64,000 nt of DNA from a virus: positions 50,944 through 114,943 of IMG/VR virus record IMGVR_UViG_3300044953_000102. The stretch is one strand, 5' to 3'. This document shows positions 8,369 through 42,788 of this stretch, piece after piece. Made by a program: the position numbers and the translations under genes. Below the pieces are notes generated by a model, which was not told the origin of the DNA, did not search any database, and worked only from the letters and a program-made list of their open reading frames with translations. Position 1 is the first letter of the stretch; each line of letters starts with the position of its first letter.

Positions 8369-8379
8369 AATTAAATAAC

Positions 8380-9040: not shown

Positions 9041-9042
9041 TT

Positions 9043-9282: not shown

Positions 9283-9284
9283 TA

Positions 9285-9629: not shown

Positions 9630-9631
9630 TC

Positions 9632-9952: not shown

Positions 9953-9982
9953 AAATATTATTAATTAAAAAATAAATGTATA

Positions 9983-10290: not shown

Positions 10291-10307
10291 ACTAAAAATT
10301 ATAAGAA

Positions 10308-25000: not shown

Positions 25001-27561
25001 CAATTAATAATTTACAAAGATCTGATGCTGTTGTAATTAGAACAATGTCTGGTCCACAATATTTGGGTGGTGTAAATATTGGACCACATCTAATAACATC
25101 AGGTTTTCAAGATAAATCACTAGTTACTTTAGGAACTCTAGTTCAAAATAGTTCTGATCCTGCAATTTTACCAGGACTTCTTCCAGATTTTAATGATGAT
25201 AAAAAAGACTTACCATTTAGTTTACAAATAGCAAGTCATTATGGTGCAATCAAAGGAAGAGTGAGAAATCAATATGGTCAATTGGGTAGTGAATTTCAAA
25301 CAGTTATTACACCATGTGAACAAAAATTATCAAATTATAATGTACAACCTGCCGGGTGGATTTGTCCTACAATTAATGGACAAAATTATAGTGCAAATGT
25401 AATTACAAGAACTCCAATATTTTTTGGAGGAGATACTTATATAAATAGATATACGGAGAAGAACAACATGATGTTCTTTTATAATTGGTTATATGGACAA
25501 CCAGATGGGTTTGAATATAACTACTTCTTATATAGTATGATACCAAGTGCAAGATTTGCTACAAATAGTATTGCATATGATCCAGGAGATTTAGCAGAAG
25601 TTTTTAATTTTAATTCTCCTGCTGTACCTGGTACAGGTGCATTTCCAGGAAGATTTTATAATTTGGACTACTATGTACCAGGTATACTTGGTAATAGAAA
25701 ATATAATTATAATGATGATACTAAAGGTGGTTCTCCAGGATTTTTTCCTTTTCAAAATTTTGTAGAAAGAGAAAAAGGTTTATGGTCAGTAAGAGATGCA
25801 TACTTTTATTTAGCTAACTCAGGAGTAAGGGATTTCTTTGTTGAATCTGAAGTACTTATTGATTTTAGAAAACAAAGTACAAGAGAGGGTGGTAAACATT
25901 ATGATCCTTATAAATATACTGATATTGAAGCTATGTTTGATATGAACCCAGATATTATGGGTAGACTTAGTGAATATATCTATGATTACTCATTAAGTGT
26001 TTCTAAACTATACAATCAATATTTTTCTGTAGGTAGTTTACAATCAAGATATTATGACCCAGAAGTAGCTAAATATTGTTACACATATTATCCAGATAGA
26101 ATAATTTATTCATTACCTCAACAAGATGAAGCAATAAAAGATAGTTGGTTTATCTATTTAGTAAATAACTATAAGGAATTTAAAGGGCAAATATCTGGTG
26201 TTAAGTCAATTAACAAATCTGGTATATTTATTACTTTTAAAAATGAAAGCCCATTAATGTATCAAGGTGTAGATACACTTGAGACAGATTTAAATACTAA
26301 GATTACTATTGGGGATGGTGGATTATTTTCTCAGCCACAACAATCTGTTTCTAATGCCGATAAGGCATATGAATATGGATCATCACAAAATAGATTATCT
26401 GTAATATCTACACCAGCAGGTATATTCTATATGTCTCAAAATCAAGGTAGAATATTTAGTTATGGTCAAGGTTTACAAGAGATATCCCAATCAGGATTAA
26501 AGTGGTGGTTTATTTTATATATGCCATATCAATTAACTTTAGATTTTCCTGAATATCCTTGGACAGATAATCCTGTAGCTGGTATTGGATGTCAAGCAAC
26601 TTATGACAGTTCTAGTGCAGTTCTTTATTTTGCTAAAAAAGACTACCGTCTTAAAAAAGAATTTAAAGGAAGAGTTACATATGAACCATTAGATAGAAAA
26701 GGATTTGGAGATGTTTTTATTCTTGATGGATCTAAAAATTCTAAATACAGACTAGGAGATCCTTATCTTTTTGATGATGCTTCTTGGACAGTGAGCTATG
26801 ACCCTAAACAACAATACTGGGTAAGTTTTCATGACTGGCATCCTGATTTATTAATACCAACTAAAGATATATTCTTAAGTACAAAAGGTAATGGTATATG
26901 GAAACATAATTTTATCTGTGATGGTTTCTGTAATTTCTATGGTCAACAATATGGCTTTGAAATAGAATTTCCAATTGTTACTGGTCAAACAGTAATGACC
27001 ACTAGATCAATGGAATATATTTTAGAAGCATACAGAAGACGTGGTGATAGTTGTATAGATCAACATCATGTTCTTGATTACAACTTTGATACAGCTGTAG
27101 TTTATAATTCAGAACAAGTTTCCGGATACTTAAATTTAAATATATATCCTAAGAACGATATTAATCTATCACTACAATATCCTAAGATAGGTACAAACCA
27201 GTCTTCATACGATATATTATTTTCTAAAGAAGAACAGAAGTATAGATTCAATCAATTCTGGGATATTACAAAAGATCGTGCAGAGTTCCCTATAGGTTCT
27301 AATTATCCTCCTACAGGTCCATTAGTTCCAGGTACTACTCAACTTCTTGGTAATTACTCTTCTGAAAATACTTGGATTACAGCTGCAGATGGATACAGTA
27401 GAATATTAAATCCAAATAATATGGATTATAGTAAACCTGAATTGCAAAGAAAAAAATTCAGACATTACTTGAATTTCTTAAATTTAAGAAAAGAGCAGTG
27501 TAATGATGTTAACGTCATACTCAAAATGTCAAATAGTAAAAATCAATATTCTTCAAGGTAA
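22060..27561 (+). CDS. Giant tail hub/stabilisation (beta-propeller-like) protein
   Basis: This 1833-residue protein begins SFTKGLNKDSDPSFVQEGMW followed by HAINVVNNTIEGD and LSNETSN. This N-terminal pattern (G-L-N-x-D...G...A-x-N...G) is seen in P22 gp10-like hub and stabilisation proteins of podoviruses and in crAss-like tail hub or muzzle proteins. Most of the chain is beta-rich with many Tyr, Asn and Trp residues. An Ala/Gly-rich hydrophobic insert (about residues 760-880) could insert into membrane or pack inside the tail channel. It starts two bases after the ring protein and overlaps the next gene (TAATG). The length is large for the group, so extra domains are likely, but none was recognised. 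Confidence 0.6.
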   Translation: MAKYQGLQDTSKSFTNSFTKGLNKDSDPSFVQEGMWTHAINVVNNTIEGDVGTLSNETSNILCASVGRSMPATVTEKFILGAIYLYSDKWIIYSVGYNAIGLAVTSEIGLLEEDVCTYREIVQDPCLSFDKHYLISGASREKEDCSWQVYWADGLNPDRFLNIGDPKLWPTPDYQWVGGTINMNFYSNGSDTTFLWPGVQWEQTCPTPAPAGGGPYVLDCEHCRDVNKLDCPKTRIARLMETPCLNLILGQSGGTLANGTYFAVIAYSIKGQKVTDWFSQSNFQFVYTENDLEGSLTVEVSADSENFDEFILAIVESTNQQTVATQMGIYSTKTSRIAIDQINPSNIKIPLEQIPIQTPVFETSDQMTDVNGYLMRVGPRSKFDFNYQPLANLIRAKWTSVEYPADYYVKGGNKTNYLRDEVYTFYIRWIYDTGDKSASYHIPGRPSKNFQIPGGISMAETDFFNVTNDKNVLATDDQVFEVYNTASFSPYPTTLPGATLVNGKWVLPDGGTLLAVGEMGYWQSSERYPNNRPDIWNPSKYCWTGPAAQIQPGQTEGYYDLCGKNIRHHKFPEDFINNSANTEVMHFRPTTNAATSGDEYFIRIMGVMFENIILPKDQDGNDIPGIVGYEILRGSREGNKTIVAKGMVNNFRTFELKGALAKNRTGLYPNYPYNTIQPIGWSINQNDHNYNVNDPYIKNVGNNNDVVNQDIPTDIFTFHSPDTMFRTPFLSTTEFKLYGSLNGYADMNFQEPNGHPKFKLLSDYVVLPMIIAGVAEAIISMIGRRTINSPTIVPGSGASDAAGAASAAALAAMPIVTGAAASYNAFIGSYYSSGQALADVFLMLAGGYGATQLSAFDQGLAAATAAAATSNVVVPATIAGTIELPDFAYLDPITRTLGALNQIVYYFSEGADIALKIFYAITPYRQYALQQVSHGYYNTMSRISNSLLKRFRIDDSFYMRDNIQQVSKYQDVTTGNYYNYTINNLQRSDAVVIRTMSGPQYLGGVNIGPHLITSGFQDKSLVTLGTLVQNSSDPAILPGLLPDFNDDKKDLPFSLQIASHYGAIKGRVRNQYGQLGSEFQTVITPCEQKLSNYNVQPAGWICPTINGQNYSANVITRTPIFFGGDTYINRYTEKNNMMFFYNWLYGQPDGFEYNYFLYSMIPSARFATNSIAYDPGDLAEVFNFNSPAVPGTGAFPGRFYNLDYYVPGILGNRKYNYNDDTKGGSPGFFPFQNFVEREKGLWSVRDAYFYLANSGVRDFFVESEVLIDFRKQSTREGGKHYDPYKYTDIEAMFDMNPDIMGRLSEYIYDYSLSVSKLYNQYFSVGSLQSRYYDPEVAKYCYTYYPDRIIYSLPQQDEAIKDSWFIYLVNNYKEFKGQISGVKSINKSGIFITFKNESPLMYQGVDTLETDLNTKITIGDGGLFSQPQQSVSNADKAYEYGSSQNRLSVISTPAGIFYMSQNQGRIFSYGQGLQEISQSGLKWWFILYMPYQLTLDFPEYPWTDNPVAGIGCQATYDSSSAVLYFAKKDYRLKKEFKGRVTYEPLDRKGFGDVFILDGSKNSKYRLGDPYLFDDASWTVSYDPKQQYWVSFHDWHPDLLIPTKDIFLSTKGNGIWKHNFICDGFCNFYGQQYGFEIEFPIVTGQTVMTTRSMEYILEAYRRRGDSCIDQHHVLDYNFDTAVVYNSEQVSGYLNLNIYPKNDINLSLQYPKIGTNQSSYDILFSKEEQKYRFNQFWDITKDRAEFPIGSNYPPTGPLVPGTTQLLGNYSSENTWITAADGYSRILNPNNMDYSKPELQRKKFRHYLNFLNLRKEQCNDVNVILKMSNSKNQYSSR

Positions 27562-30500
27562 TGTATAATAAAAAAATTCTTATTGATGCGCTAAAGAAGT
27601 TAGGAAGTGCCAAAGCTCCAGCTCAAAAAAAAGACATAGTAGTAGGTTCAAATAATCCTACTGAAATGTTTGCTATGCAAAAAGGTTTTTCACCATATGA
27701 CAAAAAGTTAAATGTAAAAAAATCTAACATACATGGTAAAGGTTTATTTACTGAACAACCACTTAAAAAAGGAGAACTAATTGGTTTAGCACATGTTAAT
27801 AATCAACCTACACCTATTGTTGGTAATTTTCATAATCATTCTGAAAATAATGCAACAGCATTAAGTATACGTAGGGGTAATCAAAGATATTTAGTTGCTG
27901 CAAAAGATTTAGAACCCGGTACAGAAATTACAACTAATTATAGATTGCAACCTGAATTAGGTCAACCAGAAGATTTTTTACATTCAATAAATGAAACTCC
28001 TACTGCTAGACGTGGTGGTTCAGCTCCAAAACTTCCAAATAAAAAAAACTCAAGAGCCTACTCAAGAAGTCTTGATGCTACTAATAGACTATTTGCAGAA
28101 CATCCTTGGTTTAAAAAATCTAAATCTAGAAAGAATAAGATTTATGATCCTAATGCTAAATACTATCAGGATGGTGGAGAACAAGGATGTCCAGAAGGTT
28201 ATACATACAATCCAGAAACAAAAAGATGTACAAGAAAAAACACAAATTGTCCTGAAGGTTATTTCTTTGATGCACAAGAAGGAAGATGTAAATCTAAAGC
28301 TTATAGAGAAAAATTTGAATTATATAATAAAGGCACTAAAATTACACCAACTGAAGAAGAAGAATCTTATTCTTATTGGCCAGATGATCTTACTTTAAAA
28401 TATCTAGATAAAGATATAATGAATAATCCAGAAGGTTCTGAAGTTAATAGACCATTTTTAATAAACCCTATTAAAACAATTGGTATTTATAATCCTGAAA
28501 GAGAATATGAAGAAGATATTGATGACAGATATCTAGCTGATACATACGTTAATGTATATCCAGATTTAAATTACCAAGTAGTTGTAGATCCTAGTAAGCC
28601 AAAAGGATATAATGCAGACAAATCTATATACTATGTTCCTGATGAGAATAATTTTGAATTTGAAAAATTTAAACAATATAAAAAACTAAAAGAAATTGAA
28701 AAAGAAAACTTATCAAATCTTGCAAAATATCCAAATTTAATAACAAAAGAATGGCAAGAAGATTATAAGTATCGTCCACAGGATGATCCTAAACTATTTT
28801 TAGATGCTGAATATTATGGTCAAGGTCTTCCGGGTTATTATACAAACCTAACAAACATGCCTTTTGATAAATATAAAAATTCAATAAAAAGAGAATTTAA
28901 TACGGGTTGTAAAGATTGTAAATATCATTATGGTATAAGTCATGAATATAATGATGATTATAATATCAACTTAATTAATCTTGGACATGTAAAAAAAGGT
29001 CTTAAAAGCAATGACCCTTCTTATGACATAAGAAATATAAAAGAATATGATTATGTAGATCTTCCAGATGAATCTATAATACCAAGATTTGACTTAGAAT
29101 CTGCTGATACAGAACCACCTATTTATAGAGAAGGTGATCCAAGTATGCTAGTACCTCATATGAGATTAGAACCTGGCAAAAAAAAATCTAAAAAACATAG
29201 AGGACGTTTAATGTATGGTAAAGGTCAAAAATATAAATGGACTACTTATAGACAAACTAAAGATTTAGAGTTTGGTACACATAAAACTAATAGACCTATA
29301 CCAGCTTTAGTTCAAAAATTTACAGGTTATGATCCTAAATATTATCAAGGTTATGATAAAGAAGTAGGTGATGAAACTGAATTTGTTCCTGGAGAAATTG
29401 AAAGAGCAGAGCAAGAAGGAAGAAAAGTTAACTTTAAAGGTGCGGCTACACTTAGAGATTTAAAAAAACAAAAGGAGTATGAAAGACAATGGTTAGAATA
29501 TCAAAAACAAAAAGATGAAGTAAGACAAAGAAATGAGGATTACTTAAAACAATATAATATTACCCCTGAAGAATATGAACAATACTATGGTCCTTTTAGA
29601 AGAGGAGGACAATTACCTAAAGCTCAATATGGAATACCACAAGAGTTTTATCAAAACTGGTATCAAAATAGGGTAATGCCTACTCCAGAAGGACAAAAAC
29701 TTTTAGATAAAATACGTCCTGAAGCTTTAGAAAGATCAAGACAAATGATACCTTATATTTATTCTGATAAACTAAAACTAGATGATGCAGGATATTATGA
29801 TACAAAAACTCAAGAAATAATTTTAAATAAGTTTTTACCAGAAGCACAAATAGAAGCTACAAAACAACACGAGTTTGGACATCATATACAAGCAGGAAAT
29901 AAATTTTATAATGTTTTAGATAAACCACATCAATTTCTTGTTGAACAAAATATTGTAGAGCCTGAAAAAATAAGTACAGGAAATTCAGAATGGGATGAAA
30001 AATTAAAAGAAAACTATGATTATGTAACTCAACCAGACGAAATGCATGCAAGAGTAATGACTCTTAGAAGATTAGCTGGATTTCAACCTAATCAAGTTAT
30101 TACTGAAAAAGATCTTAAAGATTATTTTAATAGAGTAAAGGAAGCTGGGGAAGCATTAGACCCAGATATAGAAGATCTAAGAGGAGTTACTAAAGGAAAT
30201 CAATCTATAGTAAATCTATTAAATGATATGGTCTCTGTTCCTAGTAATAGAGAAGATTTACAAGTTGCTAAGTATGGTGTTGAATTAGATCTTACAGAAG
30301 ATGAAATTAAAAAATATGTGGATAGAGGTTATGTGGTAGAAGACATTTCTATACCTTCATTAACAAAGATGAAAAAAGGTGGTTTACCTTGTCCACCTTT
30401 TTGTTCACCATTAATTGAACTTTCAAAAGGCTTGTCATCTATTGCACAAAATATTCCAAAAACAAATTTTTTAGGAAGGGGAATAGCAAATACTGCAACA

Positions 30501-31562
30501 ATTTTAGATGAAGGTTTGGGACAAGCTTTTTTAGCTAAGTCTAACGCAGATGCAATATCTGCAGGTAATAAATGGTTACATAATTGGATACAACATCCTA
30601 CAACACAAATGAAAATTCAAGCTGATATGTTGGATGTAATAAACAATAAAAATTTAAATCCTTACAGGATTAAATATGAAACACCAAGATATGGAGATAT
30701 TGTTCTCAATCCAGAAGAACAATATACAGAAGCATTAAAGATTGCTCAAAATTATATGCCTGATGCTAAACCATATTCTTTTGAAAATTTCTTTTCTAAT
30801 TTAAAAGAGGATAAATTAAATCCAATGTTTGATGTTATGGGTATAACATACAAACATCAGTCAGATCCTATTATGCGTAGTTTATATAGTCATGCATTTT
30901 TTAAACCAAACAGTACTCAAATTGATACTGACTATAAACCTTTTAAACATTATGGGACATTTATTAGAAGAAGTCCATCATTTAGTCCTTATCAAAAAGA
31001 ATTAGTAACAATACATGAAGGTACACATGAGTGGATAACAGATAAATTGTTAAAAGAAACTGGTCAAAAAGATTTAATCTTAAGCAGTATTGATCCAGAA
31101 ATTAAAAAACTTTTTGATAAATGGTCAGTAGATCGTGAAACAAAAGATTTAACTGAGGATGAAAAAAAGCTTGCTTATCTATCAAATCCAACAGAAGTGC
31201 ATGCAAGAATAATGGAATTAAGAAGACATAATAATTTAACTCCTTCTGATTATGTTGATGAAAATATGGCAAAAAAATTTCTTGAACAAATTAAAAATAA
31301 AGAAATATCTGGCGGCAAAGAATTTGCAACAGTTTTAAAAAATGATCCTAAAACATTATCTAAATTAATGAATGATTTATATAATATTTCAATTCCTTTG
31401 GGTGTTGGTATTGGAGGAGCATCTTTATTAAAAAATCCATACAAAGAAGAATCACCAATTGGTGGATATAAAATGGGTGGAGAGTTTGAATTAGGTGATG
31501 AAGTAGATGAAGTTACTATGAAAGAATTAAAAAAATTAGGTTTTACATTTGAAAAAATATAA
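27561..31562 (+). CDS. Virion-type protein: SET domain plus two HExxH zincin domains
   Basis: This 1333-residue multidomain protein probably travels in the virion. Residues 50-128 form a SET methyltransferase domain: SNIHGKGLF (55-63), NFHNHSENNA (89-98) and GTEITTNYR (120-128) match the G-x-G, N-H-S and GEELT-x-D-Y signatures. Two CPEG repeats follow at 210-223 and 230-243, then a long charged region and LPKAQYG (685-691). Zincin 1 has HEFGH at 770-774 and later MHARVMTLRR; zincin 2 has HEGTH at 1152-1156 and later VHARIMELRR. The two zincins look duplicated. Between and after them come EIKKYVDRGYVVED and a related C-terminus, GFTFEKI. Substrates are unknown. Confidence 0.75.
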   Translation: MYNKKILIDALKKLGSAKAPAQKKDIVVGSNNPTEMFAMQKGFSPYDKKLNVKKSNIHGKGLFTEQPLKKGELIGLAHVNNQPTPIVGNFHNHSENNATALSIRRGNQRYLVAAKDLEPGTEITTNYRLQPELGQPEDFLHSINETPTARRGGSAPKLPNKKNSRAYSRSLDATNRLFAEHPWFKKSKSRKNKIYDPNAKYYQDGGEQGCPEGYTYNPETKRCTRKNTNCPEGYFFDAQEGRCKSKAYREKFELYNKGTKITPTEEEESYSYWPDDLTLKYLDKDIMNNPEGSEVNRPFLINPIKTIGIYNPEREYEEDIDDRYLADTYVNVYPDLNYQVVVDPSKPKGYNADKSIYYVPDENNFEFEKFKQYKKLKEIEKENLSNLAKYPNLITKEWQEDYKYRPQDDPKLFLDAEYYGQGLPGYYTNLTNMPFDKYKNSIKREFNTGCKDCKYHYGISHEYNDDYNINLINLGHVKKGLKSNDPSYDIRNIKEYDYVDLPDESIIPRFDLESADTEPPIYREGDPSMLVPHMRLEPGKKKSKKHRGRLMYGKGQKYKWTTYRQTKDLEFGTHKTNRPIPALVQKFTGYDPKYYQGYDKEVGDETEFVPGEIERAEQEGRKVNFKGAATLRDLKKQKEYERQWLEYQKQKDEVRQRNEDYLKQYNITPEEYEQYYGPFRRGGQLPKAQYGIPQEFYQNWYQNRVMPTPEGQKLLDKIRPEALERSRQMIPYIYSDKLKLDDAGYYDTKTQEIILNKFLPEAQIEATKQHEFGHHIQAGNKFYNVLDKPHQFLVEQNIVEPEKISTGNSEWDEKLKENYDYVTQPDEMHARVMTLRRLAGFQPNQVITEKDLKDYFNRVKEAGEALDPDIEDLRGVTKGNQSIVNLLNDMVSVPSNREDLQVAKYGVELDLTEDEIKKYVDRGYVVEDISIPSLTKMKKGGLPCPPFCSPLIELSKGLSSIAQNIPKTNFLGRGIANTATILDEGLGQAFLAKSNADAISAGNKWLHNWIQHPTTQMKIQADMLDVINNKNLNPYRIKYETPRYGDIVLNPEEQYTEALKIAQNYMPDAKPYSFENFFSNLKEDKLNPMFDVMGITYKHQSDPIMRSLYSHAFFKPNSTQIDTDYKPFKHYGTFIRRSPSFSPYQKELVTIHEGTHEWITDKLLKETGQKDLILSSIDPEIKKLFDKWSVDRETKDLTEDEKKLAYLSNPTEVHARIMELRRHNNLTPSDYVDENMAKKFLEQIKNKEISGGKEFATVLKNDPKTLSKLMNDLYNISIPLGVGIGGASLLKNPYKEESPIGGYKMGGEFELGDEVDEVTMKELKKLGFTFEKI

Positions 31563-31564
31563 TC

Positions 31565-34156
31565 ATGGCTAAGTATAGAATTACCAGTATACCACAGTCT
31601 TTACCAAAAGCGCAATTAGGTTTATTTAAAAATAAAAATACATCTCCATTATGGGAAGCTCAATCTGTTCCAGTTTTTCCAGATCAAGAATCTTCTATTG
31701 AAGATGTTATGCCTAGAAGAACTGCTGAAGAACAAGCTAATATTTTTCCTATTATAAATCCAGATTTGTCAGGTTCTGCTGAATATGATTTTTCAAAAAG
31801 TTGTCCAAATCGTCAAATTTTTTATAGAGGTCAATGTGTTAGTGAAGATGTATTAAATGTAATTCTTCAAAGAGAACAAGAAACTGAAAAATTTCAAGCT
31901 AAAGAAAGTTTTAGAAATCAACAAATTGCACATAATAAAATGCTTGATGATTTGTATATAAAAAATATGCAAATAGCTCAAGAAGAAAAAAATCTTGCTC
32001 AAAAAATTAAACATGAAGATTATGTAAAAGATTTTAAAAAATCAAAAAAATCTACACAAATAAAACCATTAGACGTATTTGATACAAATACATTAAGTGA
32101 AATGGTTCCAGTTATTGGGGATGATGGAAAAGTAGTAATGGATGAAGAGACTGGTAAACCAAAAATGCAAACAAGAAGAGAAGCACTTAGTTCACAATAT
32201 CTTTTAATTGATAATGATGAAAATAGTAACATTGGTTCAACTGGAACTACTTCTGCTTGGCCATTAGCAGTTGTTGCAGATAGAATTTACAATAGTGGAT
32301 TTCAACCAACACAGTTTAAAACAATATGGAAATTTAATGATGACCAAGTAAGACAAGTAAAAGAACAAACTGGTTCATTAATGGAAAATGCAAAAAATGC
32401 ATATGATAATGAAGCATATAATAGAATTTTAAAAAAAGCACTTGAGCTCAACATTACACCAGAAGAAGCTGCAAAAATTGTTGCTGGAAAAAATTCTAGT
32501 TTTGGATATGCAGAAAGTCTAACAAAAGAATATGCTCCCAATGTTCAGAAAATTATAAATACAGCATTTGAAGATCTTATGAAAAAAACAGGATCAAGTG
32601 CTGATGCAGAAAAACTTAGTCCTACTCAAAAAGAATTATTGCTTAATTTAGAAGAAACAAAGGATCAACAATTCTTAAATATAAATGGTGGTCATTATGT
32701 AACAGATAAAGATGGTTATAAAATATGGGTTCCTCCCGGAGTAGGAGCAAATATAATGCCACTACCTGCTGAAAGTACTGCAGTAAGAAATAAGATAGGT
32801 GCATGGACTACAGATCCTGCAACAGGTAAAAAACAGTGGGTTGCACCTAATAATAATACAGCTTATGAAAATGCTCAAGCTGAAAAACTAATTAAAGAGC
32901 AAGAAAATATGGTTGCTCAAATACAATATGCTGCTTTAAGAAGATTAATTGAATCTCCAGATGTTACTGATGCAGAAAGATTAAAAATAGCTAACGATCC
33001 AAAAAAACTTGAAAAACTAATAAGTGAATATGTAAATTGGTCTTATTCACCTGAAGGAGAATTTGATCCACGTAGAGAACAAACTCAAGGTGAATATAGA
33101 TATACTCCTGGACATTTAAAATCAGATTTTAAAATAACTCCTGAAGGTGCACAATGGTCTCCTGGTCGCTATGGTCAGGGAAGATATATTGATGGTCCTG
33201 TAAATATGGTTTATCCTGAGAAATATGTTATGGGACCTGGTGCAGGAGTTCTTGGTGGAGGTCTTAGATTACTTAATAAACCACTTGCTAGTTTTATTGG
33301 AAGTAGTGCTGCACCTTGGTTAACTGCTGGTAATTTATTTGGTGCTTATACTATATATAATGCAGTTAGACCAGAAGGAACTATTTCAAGTGCATATGAT
33401 AAATTTTCAGAGGGTGATTATAAAGGTGGTGCTTTAAAAAGTCTTGAAGCAGCATTGGAGTTGTTTCCCACTGTAGGTATTATTTCAAAAGGTGCTAAAT
33501 TATTAAAGTCAACACCAAGATTTTTTGAATATACTGCTCCTTCAGGTAGAACTTTTGGTCTTGGAAATGCAAACTTACCAAATATAACAACTGCAGAAAA
33601 ACCTGAGCAATTTCTTAGTTTAATGACAGGTAGTAATGCTTCTCAGTTAAAAAATTTATATTCAACAGAAGCTGATATTATAAATGCAGAAAAAGCACTT
33701 GCTAGTGGTCAAGCATTTCCAAGATATACATTTACTCATCCTGCAAAAACACAATTACAACTTGAACAAGCATATCAGAATTTAGATCCTAAAGAATTTA
33801 TGCTTAAGAATTTAGGATTTAGATTAGGAGAAAGTTCACCTATTGAATTTGGAACTTTTAGTCAACCTACAAAATATTCAACAAAATTTGGAGAATTTAC
33901 TTTTGGCCCTAAAAGATTTTATCCTGCTAAACTTGAGAGTATAGATTTTAAATCACCCACGGTCTATGATGAAGGTTCTGTAAATATGTTAGGTCTTAAA
34001 GAAGGAGGTTATCTACCACAAGCTCAAGGAGGGTTAATTGCATTAGCTAAAAATTTATCTAAAGGTTTAGCAATTCCAGTTTCATCTACAGTGTCTGCAT
34101 TAAGAAAAATACCAGCAACATATACTGCAATTGCTGAAGGTGGTAATTTATTTTAA
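31565..34156 (+). CDS. Virion-type cargo protein, 5' part of a frameshifted gene
   Basis: This 863-residue reading frame starts YRITSIPQSLPKAQLGL, the same N-terminal style as the genes at 34537 and 39375. A CPNRQIFYRGQC motif is at residues 80-91. A long coiled coil follows (about residues 95-160). Further on are a Gly-rich hydrophobic segment near 560-600 (GAGVLGGGLRLLNKP, then AAPWLTAGNLFGAYTIYNAV) and LPQAQGG at 817-823. The frame stops inside GGNLF at a TTTT run; shifting by one base continues into a 107-residue tail (34155-34478). The intact protein would be about 970 residues. No enzyme domain was recognised. The hydrophobic segment suggests an ejected protein that crosses or lines the host envelope. 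Confidence 0.6.
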   Translation: MAKYRITSIPQSLPKAQLGLFKNKNTSPLWEAQSVPVFPDQESSIEDVMPRRTAEEQANIFPIINPDLSGSAEYDFSKSCPNRQIFYRGQCVSEDVLNVILQREQETEKFQAKESFRNQQIAHNKMLDDLYIKNMQIAQEEKNLAQKIKHEDYVKDFKKSKKSTQIKPLDVFDTNTLSEMVPVIGDDGKVVMDEETGKPKMQTRREALSSQYLLIDNDENSNIGSTGTTSAWPLAVVADRIYNSGFQPTQFKTIWKFNDDQVRQVKEQTGSLMENAKNAYDNEAYNRILKKALELNITPEEAAKIVAGKNSSFGYAESLTKEYAPNVQKIINTAFEDLMKKTGSSADAEKLSPTQKELLLNLEETKDQQFLNINGGHYVTDKDGYKIWVPPGVGANIMPLPAESTAVRNKIGAWTTDPATGKKQWVAPNNNTAYENAQAEKLIKEQENMVAQIQYAALRRLIESPDVTDAERLKIANDPKKLEKLISEYVNWSYSPEGEFDPRREQTQGEYRYTPGHLKSDFKITPEGAQWSPGRYGQGRYIDGPVNMVYPEKYVMGPGAGVLGGGLRLLNKPLASFIGSSAAPWLTAGNLFGAYTIYNAVRPEGTISSAYDKFSEGDYKGGALKSLEAALELFPTVGIISKGAKLLKSTPRFFEYTAPSGRTFGLGNANLPNITTAEKPEQFLSLMTGSNASQLKNLYSTEADIINAEKALASGQAFPRYTFTHPAKTQLQLEQAYQNLDPKEFMLKNLGFRLGESSPIEFGTFSQPTKYSTKFGEFTFGPKRFYPAKLESIDFKSPTVYDEGSVNMLGLKEGGYLPQAQGGLIALAKNLSKGLAIPVSSTVSALRKIPATYTAIAEGGNLF

Positions 34157-34478
34157 TATAGGTTCAGCAAAAGGTGTTCCTGGTCGTGCTACAGATCCAT
34201 TAACTAATACCGCAAGAGGAACTGGTTTACATACAAGACAATGGATAAGTGGTAAGGGAAATCAAATAGGCACTATTGATCCTACTTTTAGATTTACGGA
34301 TATGAACAAAATGAGTGCTAAAGATTATTTAGAAATGGAAAGAGAAAAAGAAGACTTAATAAAGCTTTTTAATACTGGTTGGAGAGGTCATTATAAAAAA
34401 GGTGGTGTTTCAATGAAACTTTCTAAAAAAGAAATTGATCAATATATCAAAGATGGATATATAGTTGAGGATGAATAA
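34155..34478 (+). pseudogene. Frameshifted 3' part of the 31565 gene
   Basis: This frame continues the upstream protein after a one-base slip at the T run 34151-34154. Removing one T joins GGNLF to NIGSAKGVPG in a single frame. It has no credible start of its own (only a TTG out of context at 34131) and no leader. The tail carries KKGGVSMKLSKKEIDQYIKD and GYIVEDE, related to the EIKKYVDRGYVVED segment of the preceding giant protein. It could be a real mutation, programmed frameshifting or an assembly error in a homopolymer. Confidence 0.65.
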
Positions 34479-34493
34479 ACTTTATAAGTTTAT
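34475..34493 (+). other. Hairpin spanning the stop codon
   Basis: A perfect eight-pair stem, ATAAACTT (34475-34482) and AAGTTTAT (34486-34493), with loop TAT includes the stop codon. A near copy is at 42786-42802, in the same position relative to a stop. There is no T run, so it is not a classical terminator. Confidence 0.5.
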
Positions 34494-34507
34494 TGATTAA
34501 ATTAAAA

Positions 34508-34520
34508 TTTAGTATATTTA
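34508..34520 (+). promoter_or_regulatory. Candidate promoter element TTTAGTATATTTA
   Basis: It lies 17 bases before the ATG at 34537. It shares TAGTATATT with the sites upstream of 12371 and 19819. It may start transcription of the second half of the cargo operon. Confidence 0.35.
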
Positions 34521-34536
34521 ATATATAATATATCTT

Positions 34537-37500
34537 ATGAAAAAATCTGTAAGAATAAGAAAAGCACTTCCAGGAGAAAAACCAGGGTATTATAATAAGA
34601 CAGCCAAGTTTTTGAAAAAGGCTCAAATGGGCATGGAAGTAAATTCACCAAGTAATGATCCTCAAAGATTAAATGCAATATATACTAATGTATATGCTTC
34701 TTTAATGTCTGACATTACTCCAGATGTAATTTATAGTTCATTAATTGGTGAGTATGCTTTAGATGAGAATACTGCTCTTATGATATTAAGATCTGCATTA
34801 GGAAAACTTGCAGAAGAAGGTAAAATTGATCCAGAGTCTTTAGAGGGTGGTAATTCACAACAAAATCAAAAACAAGAAGAACAACCTAGTGAAACACAAG
34901 ACAGAGAAAGTCAAGAAGAATATGATCAACGCATGTCTGAAGATGCTGAACAAGATGAGTTGGCAATGTCAGATGAAGGTTATTATGATGAAGAAGAAGC
35001 AGCAAATAATGATAATTCTCATTTAGATACCGAACAAGAACAACAACAACAGGCTTTTGCATTTGGTGGTTACTATGATACGGGTGGTGAGTCAGATGAA
35101 GATTATTCAGATTACTATGATGATTCAAATCAAAGTTCTTCTCCAGAAAATGCTGTTATAAATCAATATAATAATCCTGGTCAAAATAAAATGAAGAAAC
35201 CTTTTTCTATGGAAGATCTAATAAATATGACACCAGGTATTCAAGGTACTCAATCTGTACCAGGTATAGAAGATTATTTAGGAGATTATAGACCTATATC
35301 AGAATCATATGGGTCAATGGATTACTTACCACAAGCACAATGGGGAGGATTAAGTTTACTACCTGGTTTAACAAGACAAGTTGAAAAAGGCATAGAAGCT
35401 TTTAATAAAGGCTATAGTGCAATTAGGGGTTTAAGTCCAATGACTAATGTATCAGGTATAAGAAAAGCACTTCCACTTGCTACATTAACAGGAGAAGCTT
35501 TAACTAAATTACCATATATTGGAAAAAAATTAGCTCCACAATTAAAAACCACATTTACACAAAACAGAAATCATTTATGGAAGGTTTTAAATGGTGCTGG
35601 TCCAAATCAAGAAATTTTTGGAAATGTTGGAACTCGTGCTAATCCTGATGGTAGTTTACAAGTAAATAGATTATTACTATATCAAGATGATGTAGCAAAA
35701 ATAGTTAGTCAAATTGAAGACTCTGGAAGTCCTGCTGCAGTTATAGAACCAGATGGTTCAATGAGTTGGGATTATAGCAAAACACTTCCTGAAAGAAAAG
35801 TATTTGAGCTTGGTGAAGTACAACCAATGGCTGCAGCAGATGGTTTAGTAAGTGGTGTATATCCCATGAATTCTAAAGTAACTGGTGGAGTGGATGATAA
35901 AGGAAATAAATTTTTTGAGATTTCACATAAATTTGGCCCTAATCAAACATTACCTTTTGGATCAACATCAAGTAAAGCAAAAGAATTAACATTTAAAAAT
36001 AGATTTTATTATAAAACTGTAGTTGATCCTGCTACTAATCAAACATCTATTAAAGTGTTTGGACCATTGGGAGAAGAATTAACACCTGGCACTCAAACTA
36101 AATTTAAAATACAAAGACCTTTTATACCATCTGTATTAAGAACTGTAGCAGAAAAATTTTTGCAAGATCCTAATACACCTTTTCCAAATTTTCAAGTAGA
36201 TTTTGGAAGAAATCCAAACGGTCCTTTTACAAGTAGGGTTGGTCGCGTAGATATTACTTCTACTCCACCATCTACAGTAGATAGGTTAAGTACTAGGGGT
36301 AAAATTGGTAGAGGTTTAGAAAATTTTGCTTTAAGTACTTATATACCACAAATATTTGGATTAGGTAATCCATTAAGAACATCTCCAAAAAATGTAACTC
36401 CATTAAAACTTCCAGTTCTTGGATATACAAGTTCTGCATTAGGTCCTAATGTTGTTAATCCAGCACTTGAAACTGGTGTTGCTAGTGACATTGCAAATGC
36501 AATGAACTATAAATATAGAATAGGACGTAATGCATTAATAGGAGCAGGAGGATTAGGTTACTTAGGGTATAAGACTTGGGATGCTTTTTATAATCAGTGT
36601 CAATGTGATAATCCAACAGGTAGAAATTATATGCCTAAAGATGAGTATGGTAATTGTCCTTGTGGAGGAGATGTTGATGATAAAAGAATACTAGATCCTA
36701 CAGAACAGCCGACTGTTCAAGATATTATGAAGTTTTTGGATGAGCAGGGTCTTTATCCTACTGAAAAAGATTACTATAGACTTAAAGGAAAAAATAAAAG
36801 AAGTAAAGCTGTTGATTATAAAACTGGAGGTATAACAGAAAAACAATTTGTAAAAGCATTCTCTTCTAAATTCCAAGATGGTGGACCTCAAGATCAATCA
36901 TTGGGTAAAGGTAAAAGAATGGATACCCTTACTAATGATGTAGAAGCTAGAAAAGATATCTTTAAAAGTAAACTTAAAGATAATTCTAATGTAGCTCTTA
37001 CAAAAGAAATTTATAAAAATGCACAAAGTAATCCTCAGATCTTAAACATGTTAATGCAAGATGGTCCTAAAGAAAATCTTGCTGAAGATACAGGAATGCA
37101 AACAGCACAATTTGGAGGAGTTCCTAATTGGTATACTGGATATAACACAGCTTTATCACCAAAAGAGTATAGAAAGTTATATAGACAAATGAAAAGAATG
37201 ATACCAAGAGGTCTAGATATATCTAGAGCTAACATGGCATCAAACTTTTATGACAATAGATTTATGCAGCCAGGTTACGGTACAGTAGTTACTACACCTG
37301 AGTATATGAATATGCTTGCTATGTCTTCATTACCATTGTACAAAAGTGCAGCCAATGTTTATGGAGGTGGTAGAAAACCTTCTGAATTACAAGCATATGA
37401 AGCTACAGCAATCAATAATGAAAAAGGAATACCATTACTTCCTGAAATGACTCCAGACTTTATTGATTCTCCATTAGTAAGGGGTTCAGGTGGTCAATTT

Positions 37501-39366
37501 ATCGCAGGTGATGAAAATCTTTTGACATATGATCAAGGAGGTTTTGTAGATATGGATGCTGAAAATCCTTTAGTAAGATTTATCTACGGTGGAGATGAAA
37601 CCGGATACTATGAACCAGAAGATTTACCAATGGCTCAATTTGGTCAAAATATAATGAATAAAGATCTTGAGCAAAGAGTAGTAGGGGATAAATTATCATA
37701 TGATGATTGGGTTGAGGGTGAAAGAGATGATTTTGCAACAACACATCCTGGTGAAGATTTTGATACTTGGAAAGCTGGTCAAACTGGTCAAGATGATTAT
37801 AAAAAATATGAAGATTTTTATGGTAAATCTTTATATGATTATACAAACTTTGATGATCCAAATGTAAATCCTAATCCAAATAATAATCCAAATAATAATA
37901 CACAAAATGGTAAAAATTGTCCTCAAGGATATGTTTGGAATGCAACATATAATGCATGTATACCGGTAGCTCAAGTTACTTATAATCCAAGAGTTGTTAG
38001 AGGTCAATCAGGATTATTTAGAAATTTAGCTCCTTGGAATCCAGCATTTGGTTATGCAGGATCTTGGACAAAACAAATGTCATTACCATATCAATTAGGT
38101 TCTCGTAATCCTTATATGGGTCAACTTACCGGTGCACCTGCTGCACGATATGTTACCAAAAAAGGAATATTTGGAAAACCTAAAAAATGGATTGATATTT
38201 ATGATGTTGATGCAGCAGATGATATTTTAAGTAATTACGATTATGTGGGTCCAGAAAATATAAACTCATATGATAATAATAATATGCAGCAAACTAGAAA
38301 AAAAAGTTCTGGTGATAGACTAGATAGACGGATTGCAAGATGGGATAGAAGAGCTGCAAGAAATGAAGAGGAGTATGAACCTATGGAAGGTGCTATTACA
38401 AACTATGAAAACCCAGATGATTTTTATAATGCAATAAATCCTGTTTCTAGAGAAGATGCTCAATTCTTAGGTGCTGGTTATACTGCTTCTGAAGATTATA
38501 AAAATAAAGGTAAAGTAAGAACAGTTAGAGATGCAGAAGGTAACTGGTATGATAGAGATGATAAAATGATACCTGGTAAAAAAGCTCCTTCAGAAGTTCC
38601 TGGATATTATGATAAAAAAAGTAATTTAACAAAAGATGAACTTAAGTTACTTGAAAATTTAAAATATTTTAGACATGGAGGTTTACATACATATGGGCCT
38701 GGTGGTGCTAATGATCCTAATACTAATCCACCGGCTTGGATGTCAGGTCCTAATCCAAAACAATATGGCACATATGATGGAAATATGATAAGTCAAGCAC
38801 CAATGGGTACAACCAAAGGTTTTGATGAGTTTGGTAATCCTGTAAGTCAAGCACCAGCATTTGGTATTCAACCACCAGCAGCTGCATCACCAGAAAACTA
38901 TTATGTTAAAGATCAAAATCCAATTAAAAGAAATTTAGTTGGGGTAGAAAATAAAAGAAAAGACATGTTTAATGTTGATTCAGAATCTTTTCTAAATCAA
39001 ACTAATGCATTTGCAAGAGGAGCTTTAAATTTATTTGATCCTGAGAAAAAAAGACAATGTGGTCCTGGAACTACTTGGAACTCAAGCACACAAACATGCC
39101 AACCTACAGATGCAATGGATATCTATGCTACAGCTACTGAACAAGATAGAGGTGACTGGACAGATATAGGTTCTAAGGCTGGTCTATATAGATATGATCA
39201 AGAAGGACAAGATAGAAGCAGTAGAGCAACCTTTGGTCAGTATGGTGGATACATGCAAGATGGTGGTTTTTATGACCCATATTACGAAGAGGATGAAGAA
39301 GTAATTATGACTCCTGAAGAATTAGAACAATTCTTGGCATCTGGAGGACAAGTTGAATATTTATAA
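34537..39366 (+). CDS. Giant virion-type cargo protein with repeated PxAQxG and CPxG motifs
   Basis: This 1609-residue protein starts with a basic segment (SVRIRKALPG) and FLKKAQMG at 25-32. An acidic, Gln-rich disordered region follows (about residues 105-215). LPQAQWGG is at 264-271, and a beta-rich middle runs from about 330 to 640. A short Gly-rich hydrophobic helix (ALIGAGGLGYLGYKTW) lies near 675. Then come CQC...CPC (688-710), AQFGG at 857, LPMAQFG at 1030, CPQGYVWNATYNAC at 1128-1141 and CGPGTTWNSSTQTC at 1508-1521. The C-terminus is acidic with GGxxxY pieces. No enzymatic domain was recognised. Its place among cargo genes and its shared motifs suggest an internal virion protein that may be cleaved on maturation. 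Confidence 0.6.
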   Translation: MKKSVRIRKALPGEKPGYYNKTAKFLKKAQMGMEVNSPSNDPQRLNAIYTNVYASLMSDITPDVIYSSLIGEYALDENTALMILRSALGKLAEEGKIDPESLEGGNSQQNQKQEEQPSETQDRESQEEYDQRMSEDAEQDELAMSDEGYYDEEEAANNDNSHLDTEQEQQQQAFAFGGYYDTGGESDEDYSDYYDDSNQSSSPENAVINQYNNPGQNKMKKPFSMEDLINMTPGIQGTQSVPGIEDYLGDYRPISESYGSMDYLPQAQWGGLSLLPGLTRQVEKGIEAFNKGYSAIRGLSPMTNVSGIRKALPLATLTGEALTKLPYIGKKLAPQLKTTFTQNRNHLWKVLNGAGPNQEIFGNVGTRANPDGSLQVNRLLLYQDDVAKIVSQIEDSGSPAAVIEPDGSMSWDYSKTLPERKVFELGEVQPMAAADGLVSGVYPMNSKVTGGVDDKGNKFFEISHKFGPNQTLPFGSTSSKAKELTFKNRFYYKTVVDPATNQTSIKVFGPLGEELTPGTQTKFKIQRPFIPSVLRTVAEKFLQDPNTPFPNFQVDFGRNPNGPFTSRVGRVDITSTPPSTVDRLSTRGKIGRGLENFALSTYIPQIFGLGNPLRTSPKNVTPLKLPVLGYTSSALGPNVVNPALETGVASDIANAMNYKYRIGRNALIGAGGLGYLGYKTWDAFYNQCQCDNPTGRNYMPKDEYGNCPCGGDVDDKRILDPTEQPTVQDIMKFLDEQGLYPTEKDYYRLKGKNKRSKAVDYKTGGITEKQFVKAFSSKFQDGGPQDQSLGKGKRMDTLTNDVEARKDIFKSKLKDNSNVALTKEIYKNAQSNPQILNMLMQDGPKENLAEDTGMQTAQFGGVPNWYTGYNTALSPKEYRKLYRQMKRMIPRGLDISRANMASNFYDNRFMQPGYGTVVTTPEYMNMLAMSSLPLYKSAANVYGGGRKPSELQAYEATAINNEKGIPLLPEMTPDFIDSPLVRGSGGQFIAGDENLLTYDQGGFVDMDAENPLVRFIYGGDETGYYEPEDLPMAQFGQNIMNKDLEQRVVGDKLSYDDWVEGERDDFATTHPGEDFDTWKAGQTGQDDYKKYEDFYGKSLYDYTNFDDPNVNPNPNNNPNNNTQNGKNCPQGYVWNATYNACIPVAQVTYNPRVVRGQSGLFRNLAPWNPAFGYAGSWTKQMSLPYQLGSRNPYMGQLTGAPAARYVTKKGIFGKPKKWIDIYDVDAADDILSNYDYVGPENINSYDNNNMQQTRKKSSGDRLDRRIARWDRRAARNEEEYEPMEGAITNYENPDDFYNAINPVSREDAQFLGAGYTASEDYKNKGKVRTVRDAEGNWYDRDDKMIPGKKAPSEVPGYYDKKSNLTKDELKLLENLKYFRHGGLHTYGPGGANDPNTNPPAWMSGPNPKQYGTYDGNMISQAPMGTTKGFDEFGNPVSQAPAFGIQPPAAASPENYYVKDQNPIKRNLVGVENKRKDMFNVDSESFLNQTNAFARGALNLFDPEKKRQCGPGTTWNSSTQTCQPTDAMDIYATATEQDRGDWTDIGSKAGLYRYDQEGQDRSSRATFGQYGGYMQDGGFYDPYYEEDEEVIMTPEELEQFLASGGQVEYL

Positions 39367-39374
39367 CATAACCA

Positions 39375-42300
39375 ATGATAAAAGTTAGAATTAAAAAGTT
39401 ACCTCAAGCAAGAACTGGATACCAAGTTCAAGGAGCATTAGTAAATGACGTACCTGCTATGGGAGGTGCAGACTATAATGCATACATTGGTGCACCAAAA
39501 CTTCGGGAAAGTAAATACATCAAAGCTGTCCCTAGAGATGAAGCAAATCTAGAAGCAGAAGGTAGAGAAACAGTATATGGAGACATCAATGGTGATGGAA
39601 TGCCAGAACATAAAATTATTGTTGGTCCAAGACATGCTCAAGGTGGAGTTCCTTTAAATCTTCCAGAAGATACTTTTATTTTCTCTGACACAAGAGCAAT
39701 GAGAATAAAAGATCCAGAATTACTAAACATGTTTGGTAAAGGAGGTACAAATAAATCTTATACTCCGGCAGAACTAGCTAAACAATACGATGTACAGAAG
39801 TATAGAAAAATACTAGAAGATCCTGAGACAGATGCAATAGAAAGAAAGACTGCAGAGTTAATGATCAAAAAGTATGTTGTTAAACTAGGCTGTCTTGCTC
39901 TTGCACAAGAATCTATGAAAGGATTCCCACAGGGTATCCCAGCAGTAGCAAAACCATGTATGGAAGCTAGAGGTTTAACTGAGCAAGATATTCTACCTAA
40001 TAAAGAAATATCTGTTCTAAATGATCAGTTAAAAAAACAAATGGAACAAGAAGGAGCGACAGATGAAAACATACTTCAACAAGCTGAAGAGATGAATGAT
40101 GGTAATCCTGTTGCACAACCACAAGAAATGGGTCCTCCTCAAGAACAAATGGAAGCTCCTTCACCAGAAGAAATGATGATGTATAGTGGATATAGAAGAA
40201 GATTAAGAAGAGCACAAGAAGGAATGCAACAACCATCTCCTGAAGAAATGGCAATGATGCAACAGCAACAACAAGGTGGTCAAGATGAAATGGGTGAGAT
40301 AATGAAAGAAGTTGCAAATGCTCTTCAAAGAGGTGCTGATCCTTCTGAAGTTGTTATGAGTTTATTACAGAACAACATTCCACCAGATGCAATTGTACAA
40401 ATATTTACACAACTTGGTGCTGAACCACAACAAGCTGCTCAAATAGTACAGCAAGTAATAGCACAGGCCCAAGGTGGTGGTCAAGAACAAATGATGCCAC
40501 AAGAACAACCTATGTCAGAAGAAGAAGCAATGATGATGCAACAACAACAGATGCAACAACAAGCTCCTCCTATGGCACAGTATGGTATGACAATGGGTGG
40601 TTATGATATGCCATTCTATGATATGCCAGAAGCTGCTTATGGTATGGCAATGGGTTCTGGTCAATCTCAAAACTATCAAGGAAGGCCTAAAAGAATTCCT
40701 GGATCAGGTCCTATGTTTCCATTAACTAAAGCAGGGAATGGAATAACTATTGATGCTTCTAATATGACTAATGAACAACTTCAAAGAGCTATTTGGGATG
40801 CACAACAAAAAGATAAAAATGCTGAAATTACTGTAACTCGTAAAGATGCTAATGGTCAAGTAAAAACACAAAAACTTAAATCATCAGGATTTATGATTCC
40901 TGAAGGTAAGGATATTACAGATTTAAAAGGTTTTCCAGATACACCTGCAGGAAGGGTTGCTGCAGCACAATATTTATTAATTGAAGAAAACTTAAATAAT
41001 TCTACAGTTAAAGCTGAGATTATTAAAAATACTAAAGAAGCACTTGAAAATCCAGATGCTTGGACAGGTAAAGGTGGTACAAGAAATGCTAATAATACTT
41101 GGTCAAATAAATATGGTGCATTACCTTCTGATGAGGAAATTATAAAACAAGCATTAAATCATCAAAAAAGAAATTTGATGTTTGAAGCTAATGAAATTGA
41201 TCCGCAATTATTTTCTGATGTTGGTCATAAACTTGATGATGTTGATACTGTACTTAATAAAGGGTACGTTAATCCAAAAACTGGACAAAAATATACAAGA
41301 GCTGAGGCAGAAGCAGCACTTAAATCTCTTAATGTTAAAGGTTTTACTAATGTTGCTGCAATGTCAAATATACTAGGAGTTCCTTTAGACCCTAAAGGAA
41401 AAGATAGAGTTCTCCAGCAAGGAACAATGCACGGATATGCAAAAGCATATCAAAACTTTTCATCTGGTGCTTATAACTCTAATCCAGATGCAAAATATGC
41501 TATGGATAATTTTTTGGGTAATGTAAGTTTAGTTCACTCAGGTGCGGATGATGAAACTTCAATGGGAGCTTTGTATGGATCAATAGGTAATAGAATATCT
41601 CCTCTTGATGATAAATATGATTATTCAGATAATAATTGGTATCAAAAAAATTCTGGCAGATTAGTGAAAGGTAAGTTTACTACTTATGGAGATACAACAG
41701 CTGGTCATAAATATATGGTTGGTAAAAGAAATCTAGAATTTGAAGATATTCCAGAAAGTGGACCTTGTCAATGTGAAAAAGATAAATTACCTGATGGATC
41801 ACCGGACCCTTCATATAAACCAAAAGATGCTCAAGGTAATTGTACTTGTGATCCTCCAAAACCTAAAGATTGTCCATGTCAAAAATCTGATGGTACAGTA
41901 ATAAACATGACTGCAAATGCAGATGGTACTTGCCCGCCTTGTACAGAACCTAAAGATATACCTGTACCAGGTCCTCCTGCTGAATGGTGGTTACAAGATA
42001 CAATTAAAACTACCGGTGCATTTGGAGATTTAATGGGAGTTAAAAAGTATATGCCGTGGGCAGCTCCTGCAAAACTTCAAACACCAAGACCTACATTCTT
42101 AGATCCAACAAGAGAACTTGCTGCTAATGCAGAACAAGCAAATATACAAACTGCAGGTATGGCACAGTTTGCTGGACCACAAGCACTATCTGCAAGATCA
42201 TCAAGTGTTCAAGGTCAAGCTTCTAAGAATGCTGCAGATATACTTTCTAAATATAATAATGCTAATGTTAACATAGCAAATCAGTTTGAGATGAAAGCTA

Positions 42301-42788
42301 CAGACATTAGAAACCAGGAAAGTATGTTGAATCAAGCAACACAGCAAAGATTGTATGATCAAAATACAATTGCTAATCAACAGTTTGATAATGCTAAGTT
42401 GGCAATGAGAAACAACTTAAGAAATTACTATACTAACGCAATTACCAATAGATGGAAAACTGATGCATTAAATCAGATGTTCCCGAACTATCAAGTATCT
42501 CCAGGAGTAGGTGGACAAATGTATTATCAACCTACAGCAAAAACAACTAATCCTTCACAAACTTCAGGAAAAACTAAAGAAGAATGGTTTAAGTGGTGTA
42601 AAGATAATGGTGATCCAAATCCTTCTGCATGTGCTAATAGAATGATGAGTGGTAATAATTCAAATTCAGGAGGTGGAGCAGATCCAAATATGGTAAATAC
42701 TATGTATGGAACAGCTAGAGATGGTGGAGAAATGTTTGAAGATGGTGGTTTTGTTTATATTGATTCATGGCTTCCATTTATCATGTAA
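39375..42788 (+). CDS. Gln/Met-rich virion-type cargo protein
   Basis: This 1137-residue protein starts IKVRIKKLPQARTGYQVQ, sharing the LPxAxxG start with its two upstream neighbours. The N-terminal domain contains a Ca-loop-like DINGDG (70-75) followed by a conserved-looking IVGPRHAQGGVPLNLPEDTF. Residues about 210-405 are Gln/Met/Glu-rich coiled coils containing RRAQEG and MAQYG. A paired CQC...GNCTC and CPCQ...CPPC segment lies near 798-855, similar to one in the 34537 protein. A long helical region (about 910-1020) follows, with a GG-rich end. There is no recognised enzyme domain. It is probably an internal or ejected virion protein of the crAss-like cargo type. Confidence 0.6.
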   Translation: MIKVRIKKLPQARTGYQVQGALVNDVPAMGGADYNAYIGAPKLRESKYIKAVPRDEANLEAEGRETVYGDINGDGMPEHKIIVGPRHAQGGVPLNLPEDTFIFSDTRAMRIKDPELLNMFGKGGTNKSYTPAELAKQYDVQKYRKILEDPETDAIERKTAELMIKKYVVKLGCLALAQESMKGFPQGIPAVAKPCMEARGLTEQDILPNKEISVLNDQLKKQMEQEGATDENILQQAEEMNDGNPVAQPQEMGPPQEQMEAPSPEEMMMYSGYRRRLRRAQEGMQQPSPEEMAMMQQQQQGGQDEMGEIMKEVANALQRGADPSEVVMSLLQNNIPPDAIVQIFTQLGAEPQQAAQIVQQVIAQAQGGGQEQMMPQEQPMSEEEAMMMQQQQMQQQAPPMAQYGMTMGGYDMPFYDMPEAAYGMAMGSGQSQNYQGRPKRIPGSGPMFPLTKAGNGITIDASNMTNEQLQRAIWDAQQKDKNAEITVTRKDANGQVKTQKLKSSGFMIPEGKDITDLKGFPDTPAGRVAAAQYLLIEENLNNSTVKAEIIKNTKEALENPDAWTGKGGTRNANNTWSNKYGALPSDEEIIKQALNHQKRNLMFEANEIDPQLFSDVGHKLDDVDTVLNKGYVNPKTGQKYTRAEAEAALKSLNVKGFTNVAAMSNILGVPLDPKGKDRVLQQGTMHGYAKAYQNFSSGAYNSNPDAKYAMDNFLGNVSLVHSGADDETSMGALYGSIGNRISPLDDKYDYSDNNWYQKNSGRLVKGKFTTYGDTTAGHKYMVGKRNLEFEDIPESGPCQCEKDKLPDGSPDPSYKPKDAQGNCTCDPPKPKDCPCQKSDGTVINMTANADGTCPPCTEPKDIPVPGPPAEWWLQDTIKTTGAFGDLMGVKKYMPWAAPAKLQTPRPTFLDPTRELAANAEQANIQTAGMAQFAGPQALSARSSSVQGQASKNAADILSKYNNANVNIANQFEMKATDIRNQESMLNQATQQRLYDQNTIANQQFDNAKLAMRNNLRNYYTNAITNRWKTDALNQMFPNYQVSPGVGGQMYYQPTAKTTNPSQTSGKTKEEWFKWCKDNGDPNPSACANRMMSGNNSNSGGGADPNMVNTMYGTARDGGEMFEDGGFVYIDSWLPFIM

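Follow-up and report, generated by a model that had tools for sequence, protein, structure and literature searches.

We analysed a 64,000-nucleotide stretch of viral DNA (the window; positions 50,944 to 114,943 of IMG/VR record IMGVR_UViG_3300044953_000102), in which a short linear motif recurs in four large consecutive open reading frames (ORFs), named by their start positions: ORF 27561, ORF 31565, ORF 34537 and ORF 39375. The window covers the structural half of the record, whose full length is 114,943 bases. The phage is crAss-like, since the window encodes a terminase (phrog_6681, PHROGs), a portal protein (phrog_6547, E 4e-98, PHROGs), a major capsid protein (MCP) of the crassvirus type (PF23898, E 8e-30, Pfam) and a ring protein (PF24228, E 5e-12, Pfam), and the genes for these last three follow the order that is conserved in the Crassvirales. 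ORF 4350 takes the scaffold position. In tblastn the portal matched Leptolyngbya phage Lbo-JY46, csAssE-Sib and Cellulophaga phi17:2 with 27-34% identity, and also the cr phages. The four ORFs occupy the position of the crAss001 cargo genes, and are followed by the C2-position ORF 42845 and then by ORFs 46047 and 53470, which have the size of RNA polymerase (RNAP) subunits. The names C1, C2, muzzle and RNAP are assigned to window ORFs by position and size, and the virion or head location of their products is deduced from relatives.

The motif copies and tags given below, and the ORFs that carry them, lie on the + strand. ORF 27561 (27561..31562) is composed of motif-delimited modules, including a SET domain and two HExxH metallopeptidase-like domains; LPKAQYG (residues 685-691, 29613..29633), with FRRGG ahead of it, marks the joint before metallopeptidase-like domain 1. 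ORF 31565 (31565..34156), a leader followed by modules without assigned identity, carries LPKAQLG in the leader (residues 13-19, 31601..31621), which belongs to a family reading KYKITGLPKAQ in relatives, and LPQAQGG near its C-terminus (residues 817-823, 34013..34033), with KEGG ahead. ORF 34537 (34537..39366) has a leader, at least four motif-bounded modules and a C-terminal tag; its copies are LKKAQMG in the leader (residues 26-32, 34612..34632; KKAQMG, KKAAMG or KKASNG in orthologues), LPQAQWG(G) at a conserved joint (residues 264-270, 35326..35346), MQTAQFG(G) at the left edge of a cassette (residues 854-860, 37096..37116) that ends at YDQGG (37528..37542) and is absent from four relatives (L002, L003, L010 and L035), and LPMAQFG (residues 1030-1036, 37624..37644). 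ORF 39375 (39375..42788) carries LPQARTG in its N-terminal leader (residues 9-15, 39399..39419; also LPQAKTG in orthologues), LRRAQEG (residues 277-283, 40203..40223) and PPMAQYG (residues 398-404, 40566..40586).

All ten strings quoted in an earlier, sequence-only reading of this DNA were thus found in place, as was the motif at the N-terminus of three of the four proteins (residues 9-32), behind the basic stretches MAKYRITSIPQS-, MKKSVRIRKALPG...NKTAKF- and MIKVRIKK-. Across the four proteins we counted eight copies of L[PKR]xA[QR]xG and six of PxAQxG, against means of 0.024 (maximum 1 over 500 shuffles) and 0.08 in composition-preserving shuffles. Neither the 22 remaining window proteins with a length of 100 amino acids (aa) or more nor the nonstructural half of the record has L[PKR]xA[QR]xG. 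The motif had been described as P-x-A-Q-x-G, which we correct: the proline is optional, and orthologues have L-x-x-A-[QRKAS]-x-G as their core (type A). A sortase anchor was considered and rejected, because that signal consists of a C-terminal LPXTG, a hydrophobic helix and a basic tail, whereas the present motif is N-terminal or internal and reads LPxARTG or LPxAQxG.

A sister form, [FYM]-[QKE]-x-G-G or A-[YF]-G-G (type B), appears to belong to the same system. In ORF 27561 it is found as YQDGG at the joint after the SET/basic module (28164..28178), as MKKGG between the two metallopeptidase-like modules (30369..30383) and as YKMGG ahead of the tag-like C-terminal end (31467..31481). The system also extends past the region first delimited (29613-40590), to a cluster of small Lys-rich ORFs (8356..10973), one with DUF6321, that carry MKKGG, MQSGG and FKKGG. 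Between ORFs 31565 and 34537, an ORF with a TTG start and a length of 115 aa (34131-34478) has YKKGG; it could be a genuine small gene or just a fragment.

The search for the motif across crAss-like cargo proteins that had been proposed from the sequence was made on 77 loci from a scan around the C2-position ORF and 80 from a scan around the ORF after the capsid gene, and the motif recurs there above shuffled expectation. The locus genes are simple ORF calls, and the loci start within 10 kb, so that the upstream cargo is often cut off. Sequences were thinned to <50% identity before counting, as unthinned counts are not independent; the patterns were refined on the same data, with the strict type-A form following the earlier wording. 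In the thinned cargo ORFs, strict type A was found 34 times against 0.97 in shuffles, [FYM][QKE]xGG 95 against 10.4 and A[YFERKQM]GG 43 against 11.5, and in the thinned small Lys-rich ORFs type A was found 15 times against 0.30 and [FYM][QKE]xGG 92 against 2.9. The reversed patterns were at or below chance in the thinned set. In the C2- and RNAP-position ORFs the counts were 1 against 0.75 (type A), 1 against 7.2 ([FYM][QKE]xGG) and 6 against 8.0 (A[YFERKQM]GG), and in the set of TerL, portal, scaffold, MCP and gp33-like proteins strict type A occurred once against 1.1 expected. Since types A and B follow the same protein-class rule, we treat them as two spellings of one signal, and infer that they share one partner. 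In L170 and L172 (cr130_1 and cr109_1), cargo ORFs have in-frame TAG codons, consistent with stop-codon recoding in these crassviruses.

The small Lys-rich ORFs, a few of which have DUF6321 or DUF5872 domains, come after the capsid genes; their motifs are spelled with GG in the window, while relatives also have LPKAQxG or LKKAQDG. Their copies are dense and adjoin these domains, which could suggest that KxGG and QxGG in these proteins, and by extension in the cargo, touch packaged DNA in the manner of KGG/RGG repeats; we consider this very unlikely, as the surroundings of the cargo copies are acidic or neutral (YYEPEDLPMAQFG) and the motif has no basic character of its own. The Lys-rich ORFs of the window are highly variable between relatives and full of xxGG, and their products are candidate internal DNA-condensing proteins. 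The gp33-like ORF after the capsid gene (7346-8368) has at least 76% identity in the best 80 relatives. It was also considered as a hidden protease, but its AlphaFold model (predicted local distance difference test, pLDDT, 47) was too poor for a structure search, and a search with the phi17:2 homologue returned only itself.

The motif is concentrated at the protein start: it lies within the first 45 aa in 78 of 186 cargo ORFs, compared with 0.038 per 45 aa further in. In three ORF families the protein begins with basic, strand-like residues and the motif comes next (MKVRIKKLPQARTG, MKKKVRIYKAPDGKGKFVNKTAKFLRKAQEGG and MAKYKITGLPKAQKG). In an alignment of 29 sequences of the ORF 39375 family, P10, A12, G15 and Q17 never vary, and the residue after the alanine is R, K or Q. 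The AlphaFold2 model of ORF 39375 has a leader mostly below pLDDT 50 and a domain at residues 45-210 mostly at 80-90, so the leader is predicted to be disordered; a leader that is conserved yet disordered fits the expectation for a recognition peptide. A motif that sits in joints and in a predicted disordered leader could also be a hinge only, that is, a turn or flexible spacer that has no partner of its own and is favoured between domains which must pass through the tail in unfolded form, and linkers commonly have glycine-rich turns. This explanation is improbable: the four leader positions are invariant while adjoining ones vary, the enrichment is not seen when the patterns are reversed at equal composition, and small Lys-rich proteins in which no joined domains were recognised have the motif, whereas other multidomain proteins of these phages do not.

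Further copies bound exchangeable modules. About 140-160 aa separate TAQFGG from YDQGG or AEHGG in the window and in relative L008, whose ORF 34537 orthologue also has about 155 aa between FAYGGALPRAQKG and PPYQKGG, at a place where L003 reads FAKGG. The orthologue in L006 has an extra cassette between FKFGG and FGYGG, and at the LRRAQEG site of ORF 39375, relative L029 has a cassette of about 105 aa between LRRAQEG and LAKAQEGG, the site being empty in L023. Of 33 distinct insertions overall, 14 are flanked at each end, within 15 residues, by a motif, against 2.6 under random placement (maximum 8 in 1000). Together with the leader counts, this bears out the description of a short repeated motif at termini and domain joints. 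A second element of about 22 residues, probably helical, occurs in 37 copies in 221 cargo ORFs, 20 of them C-terminal, and in none of 760 control proteins. It often stands ahead of a joint; in the window it lies at an internal joint of ORF 27561 (ELDLTEDEIKKYVDRGYVVEDI, 30282..30347) and the C-terminus of ORF 34537 (EVIMTPEELEQFLASGGQVEYL, 39298..39363). Some of the internal copies of this C-tag lead straight into PEAQxG, and such a joint, a C-tag and then a leader, resembles a fused gene boundary. In two relatives the ORF 34537 and ORF 39375 types are fused (L023:4628-9937 and L029:4349-9937, 1769-1862 aa), and HMKMGGPKG stands in place of LPxAR in the second leader.

Motif copies that delimit modules and flank inserted cassettes, at joints built like a C-tag plus a leader, raise the possibility of processing sites, in which the cargo and Lys-rich ORFs would be polyproteins cut into free modules at LPxAQxG-like or xxGG sites during or after assembly and the leader a removable targeting propeptide. 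Double flanking alone does not separate docking from cutting, because a cassette entering at an existing motif need bring only one copy. Processing has precedents in T4 (PMC9026906), in the SPN3US ejection proteins cut at repeated AXE motifs (PMC10052503) and in P1 DdrB, a metallopeptidase-bearing polyvalent protein that is processed before packaging (PMC5512222). The scarcity of [FYM][QKE]xGG in the unmarked C2- and RNAP-position proteins (above) is in its favour, as is the presence of HExxH modules within the same cargo cluster. ORF 27561 matches SET (PF00856, 2e-05, above cut-off) and DUF6782 (PF20573, 1.9e-04, below the gathering score), with two HExxH-like sites, and so combines, like polyvalent proteins, several enzyme domains with embedded metallopeptidase-like and effector-type ones. 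Two HExxH-type sites are also carried by phi17:2 gp042 and phi14:2 g070 (annotated virion protein from tandem mass spectrometry).

Other findings stand against processing. Pfam and PHROGs revealed no prohead protease among 52 nonstructural and most structural ORFs, in a record that is possibly incomplete and by scans that can miss remote proteases; the only peptidase-type match was the DUF6782-like domain of ORF 27561. That metallopeptidase was rejected as a universal maturation enzyme because conservation among relatives, which the motif shows, is lacking for the HExxH modules (BLAST gave one relative for domain 2 and none for domain 1). In addition, the scaffold, MCP and portal lack the motif, which differs from the situation in T4 and SPN3US, and the Lys-rich ORFs would yield very short fragments.

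The crAss001 C1 protein, gp45, allows the question to be addressed in a virion of known structure. The gene sits just before C2, and ORF 39375, between the muzzle-position and C2-position ORFs and upstream of the RNAP-sized ones, has the corresponding position. In hhalign, ORF 39375 reached only a probability of 0.7% and E 0.08 with gp45, although aligned at the expected place, and the comparison with crAss001 gp46 reached only E 0.1. A profile built on residues 1-215 of ORF 39375 matches csAssE-Sib WOZ57299 (7e-7) and phi17:2 gp041 (7e-4) in a set of 387 ORFs, so that the domain at residues ~45-210 is common to these proteins; in the same set, gp45 did not match the hidden Markov model of this domain. 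Foldseek/VIA searches with the model of residues 1-215 gave Z of at most 4.3, none above noise, and tblastn of ORFs 34537 and 39375 gave no match in the phage collection. Among these more distant crassviruses the motif recurs, spelled differently: gp45 has a basic N-terminus and then a GG motif, and contains A[YFERKQM]GG six times against 0.48 expected, while no other crAss001 protein of at least 300 aa in a 50-kb stretch has two; phi17:2 gp041 has [FYM][QKE]xGG four times against 0.12 expected, the leader of csAssE-Sib WOZ57299 is MKLRIIKNRPIFAPGG, and the N-terminus of an Lbo-JY46 ORF is MKIRIIGLPKAQIG.

In the crAss001 virion, gp45 is ordered in two pieces that lie in different compartments about 420 Å apart, residues 214-245 in the tail and residues 425-552 on the portal wing, where 12 copies are bound (PMC10172136; PDB 7qog). 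The first piece starts four residues past AYGG. The second opens at A425 of an intact AFGG (425-428) and holds two more GG, and since this AFGG is inside the ordered portal-bound domain, those gp45 copies are uncut. The peptide ranges named in the text of that paper (79-101, 181-190, 275-300 and 307-320; PMC10172136) span no A-x-GG, as processing would predict, and are neutral on cutting at 207-210, 261-264, 330-333 and 560-563. A capsid-maturation protease site, the first of two functions suggested from the sequence, is therefore not established: the flanked cassettes, the metallopeptidase-like modules and the processed polyvalent precedent speak for it, and the lack of a recognised protease, the unmarked scaffold, MCP and portal and the uncut AFGG speak against it. 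We regard processing sites as possible but short of probable. It is somewhat doubtful that the giant cargo and Lys-rich core ORFs are true polyproteins, cut at LPxAQxG and xxGG by an unrecognised protease, possibly a cargo-borne metallopeptidase, and that the virion carries free modules; if true, this would explain the C1 pieces in both tail and capsid of crAss001 without a single stretched chain.

The second suggested function, a packaging signal for cargo, survives only when restricted to one class of proteins, formed by the C1-position ORF, its neighbours and the small Lys-rich proteins. As a universal cargo signal it is unlikely and was rejected, because the C2-position ORF and the presumed RNAP subunits lack the motif. 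The reading that we tentatively favour, at a little below an even chance, is that the motif is a short linear address or docking signal of internal core and ejection proteins. The leader or motif would be bound during prohead assembly by one shared partner (the portal, the scaffold or the inner capsid surface), which would draw the marked proteins into the head and keep each module near the portal. Several copies would allow multivalent binding, and new enzyme modules (SET, metallopeptidase-like and others) could be added as self-addressed cassettes. Cutting would be unnecessary, although the leader could be trimmed after loading, as with the T4 capsid-targeting sequence; docking and cutting can both hold, in sequence. 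An address motif read by such a partner accounts for the leader, for the confinement to internal proteins, for cassettes that bring a copy along and for the AFGG that is ordered on the portal.

Several points weigh against this docking signal. No binding partner was identified; the C2 and presumed RNAP subunits do not carry the motif, even though the corresponding crAss001 proteins belong to the virion cargo; there are up to four or more copies per protein, beyond the need of a simple loading tag; and modules flanked on both sides fit polyprotein processing equally well. All the evidence is computational, with virion location taken from relatives.

The closest precedent is the capsid-targeting sequence (CTS) of the T4 internal proteins IPI-IPIII, a 10-residue propeptide cut by gp21 (PMC9026906). 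As there, several ORFs presumed to encode head proteins share a short N-terminal leader while being otherwise unrelated, which may let the phage add head proteins; unlike the CTS, the motif is LxxAxxG, no protease is recognised, and copies are also found at internal joints and in Lys-rich proteins. The AXE sites of SPN3US and phiKZ-type phages are likewise one short motif repeated in several ejection or head proteins, mostly N-terminally (PMC10052503), but in SPN3US the portal is also cut and the protease, gp245, is known. The polyvalent proteins that Iyer et al. (PMC5512222) describe in phages and conjugative elements resemble the window ORFs in being giant, with shuffled enzyme modules and metallopeptidase domains, and are thought to be packaged and injected; in contrast, here a shared motif and a C-tag delimit modules across several ORFs, and the terms 'short motif' and 'linker' are both missing from the text of that paper. 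The likeness to gp45 is in position, basic N-terminus and the six A-x-GG, whereas the spelling of the motif differs. The processing sites of adenovirus, (M/I/L)xGG-x, and of African swine fever virus, GG-x, are also GG-type marks in core proteins and polyproteins. This may be no more than a resemblance; no such protease family was found here.

Two further genes of the record were observed: a ferritin-like protein (PF00210, 2e-25; phrog_16594) amid the structural genes (window 11678-12295) and, in the nonstructural half, a spore photoproduct lyase-like radical SAM protein (PF20903, 7e-22; L081:10728-11597).

Crassviruses are among the most abundant gut viruses, and their cargo is in the range of megadaltons. 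The crassvirus reports consulted describe cargo zones and no loading signal; the present motif seems to be absent from published descriptions, and we found no account of it in the literature. It marks cargo across the order, including the C1 protein of crAss001, and predicts internal proteins and module boundaries. As a loading tag, if that is its role, it could also serve for packaging foreign proteins into crAss-like phages.

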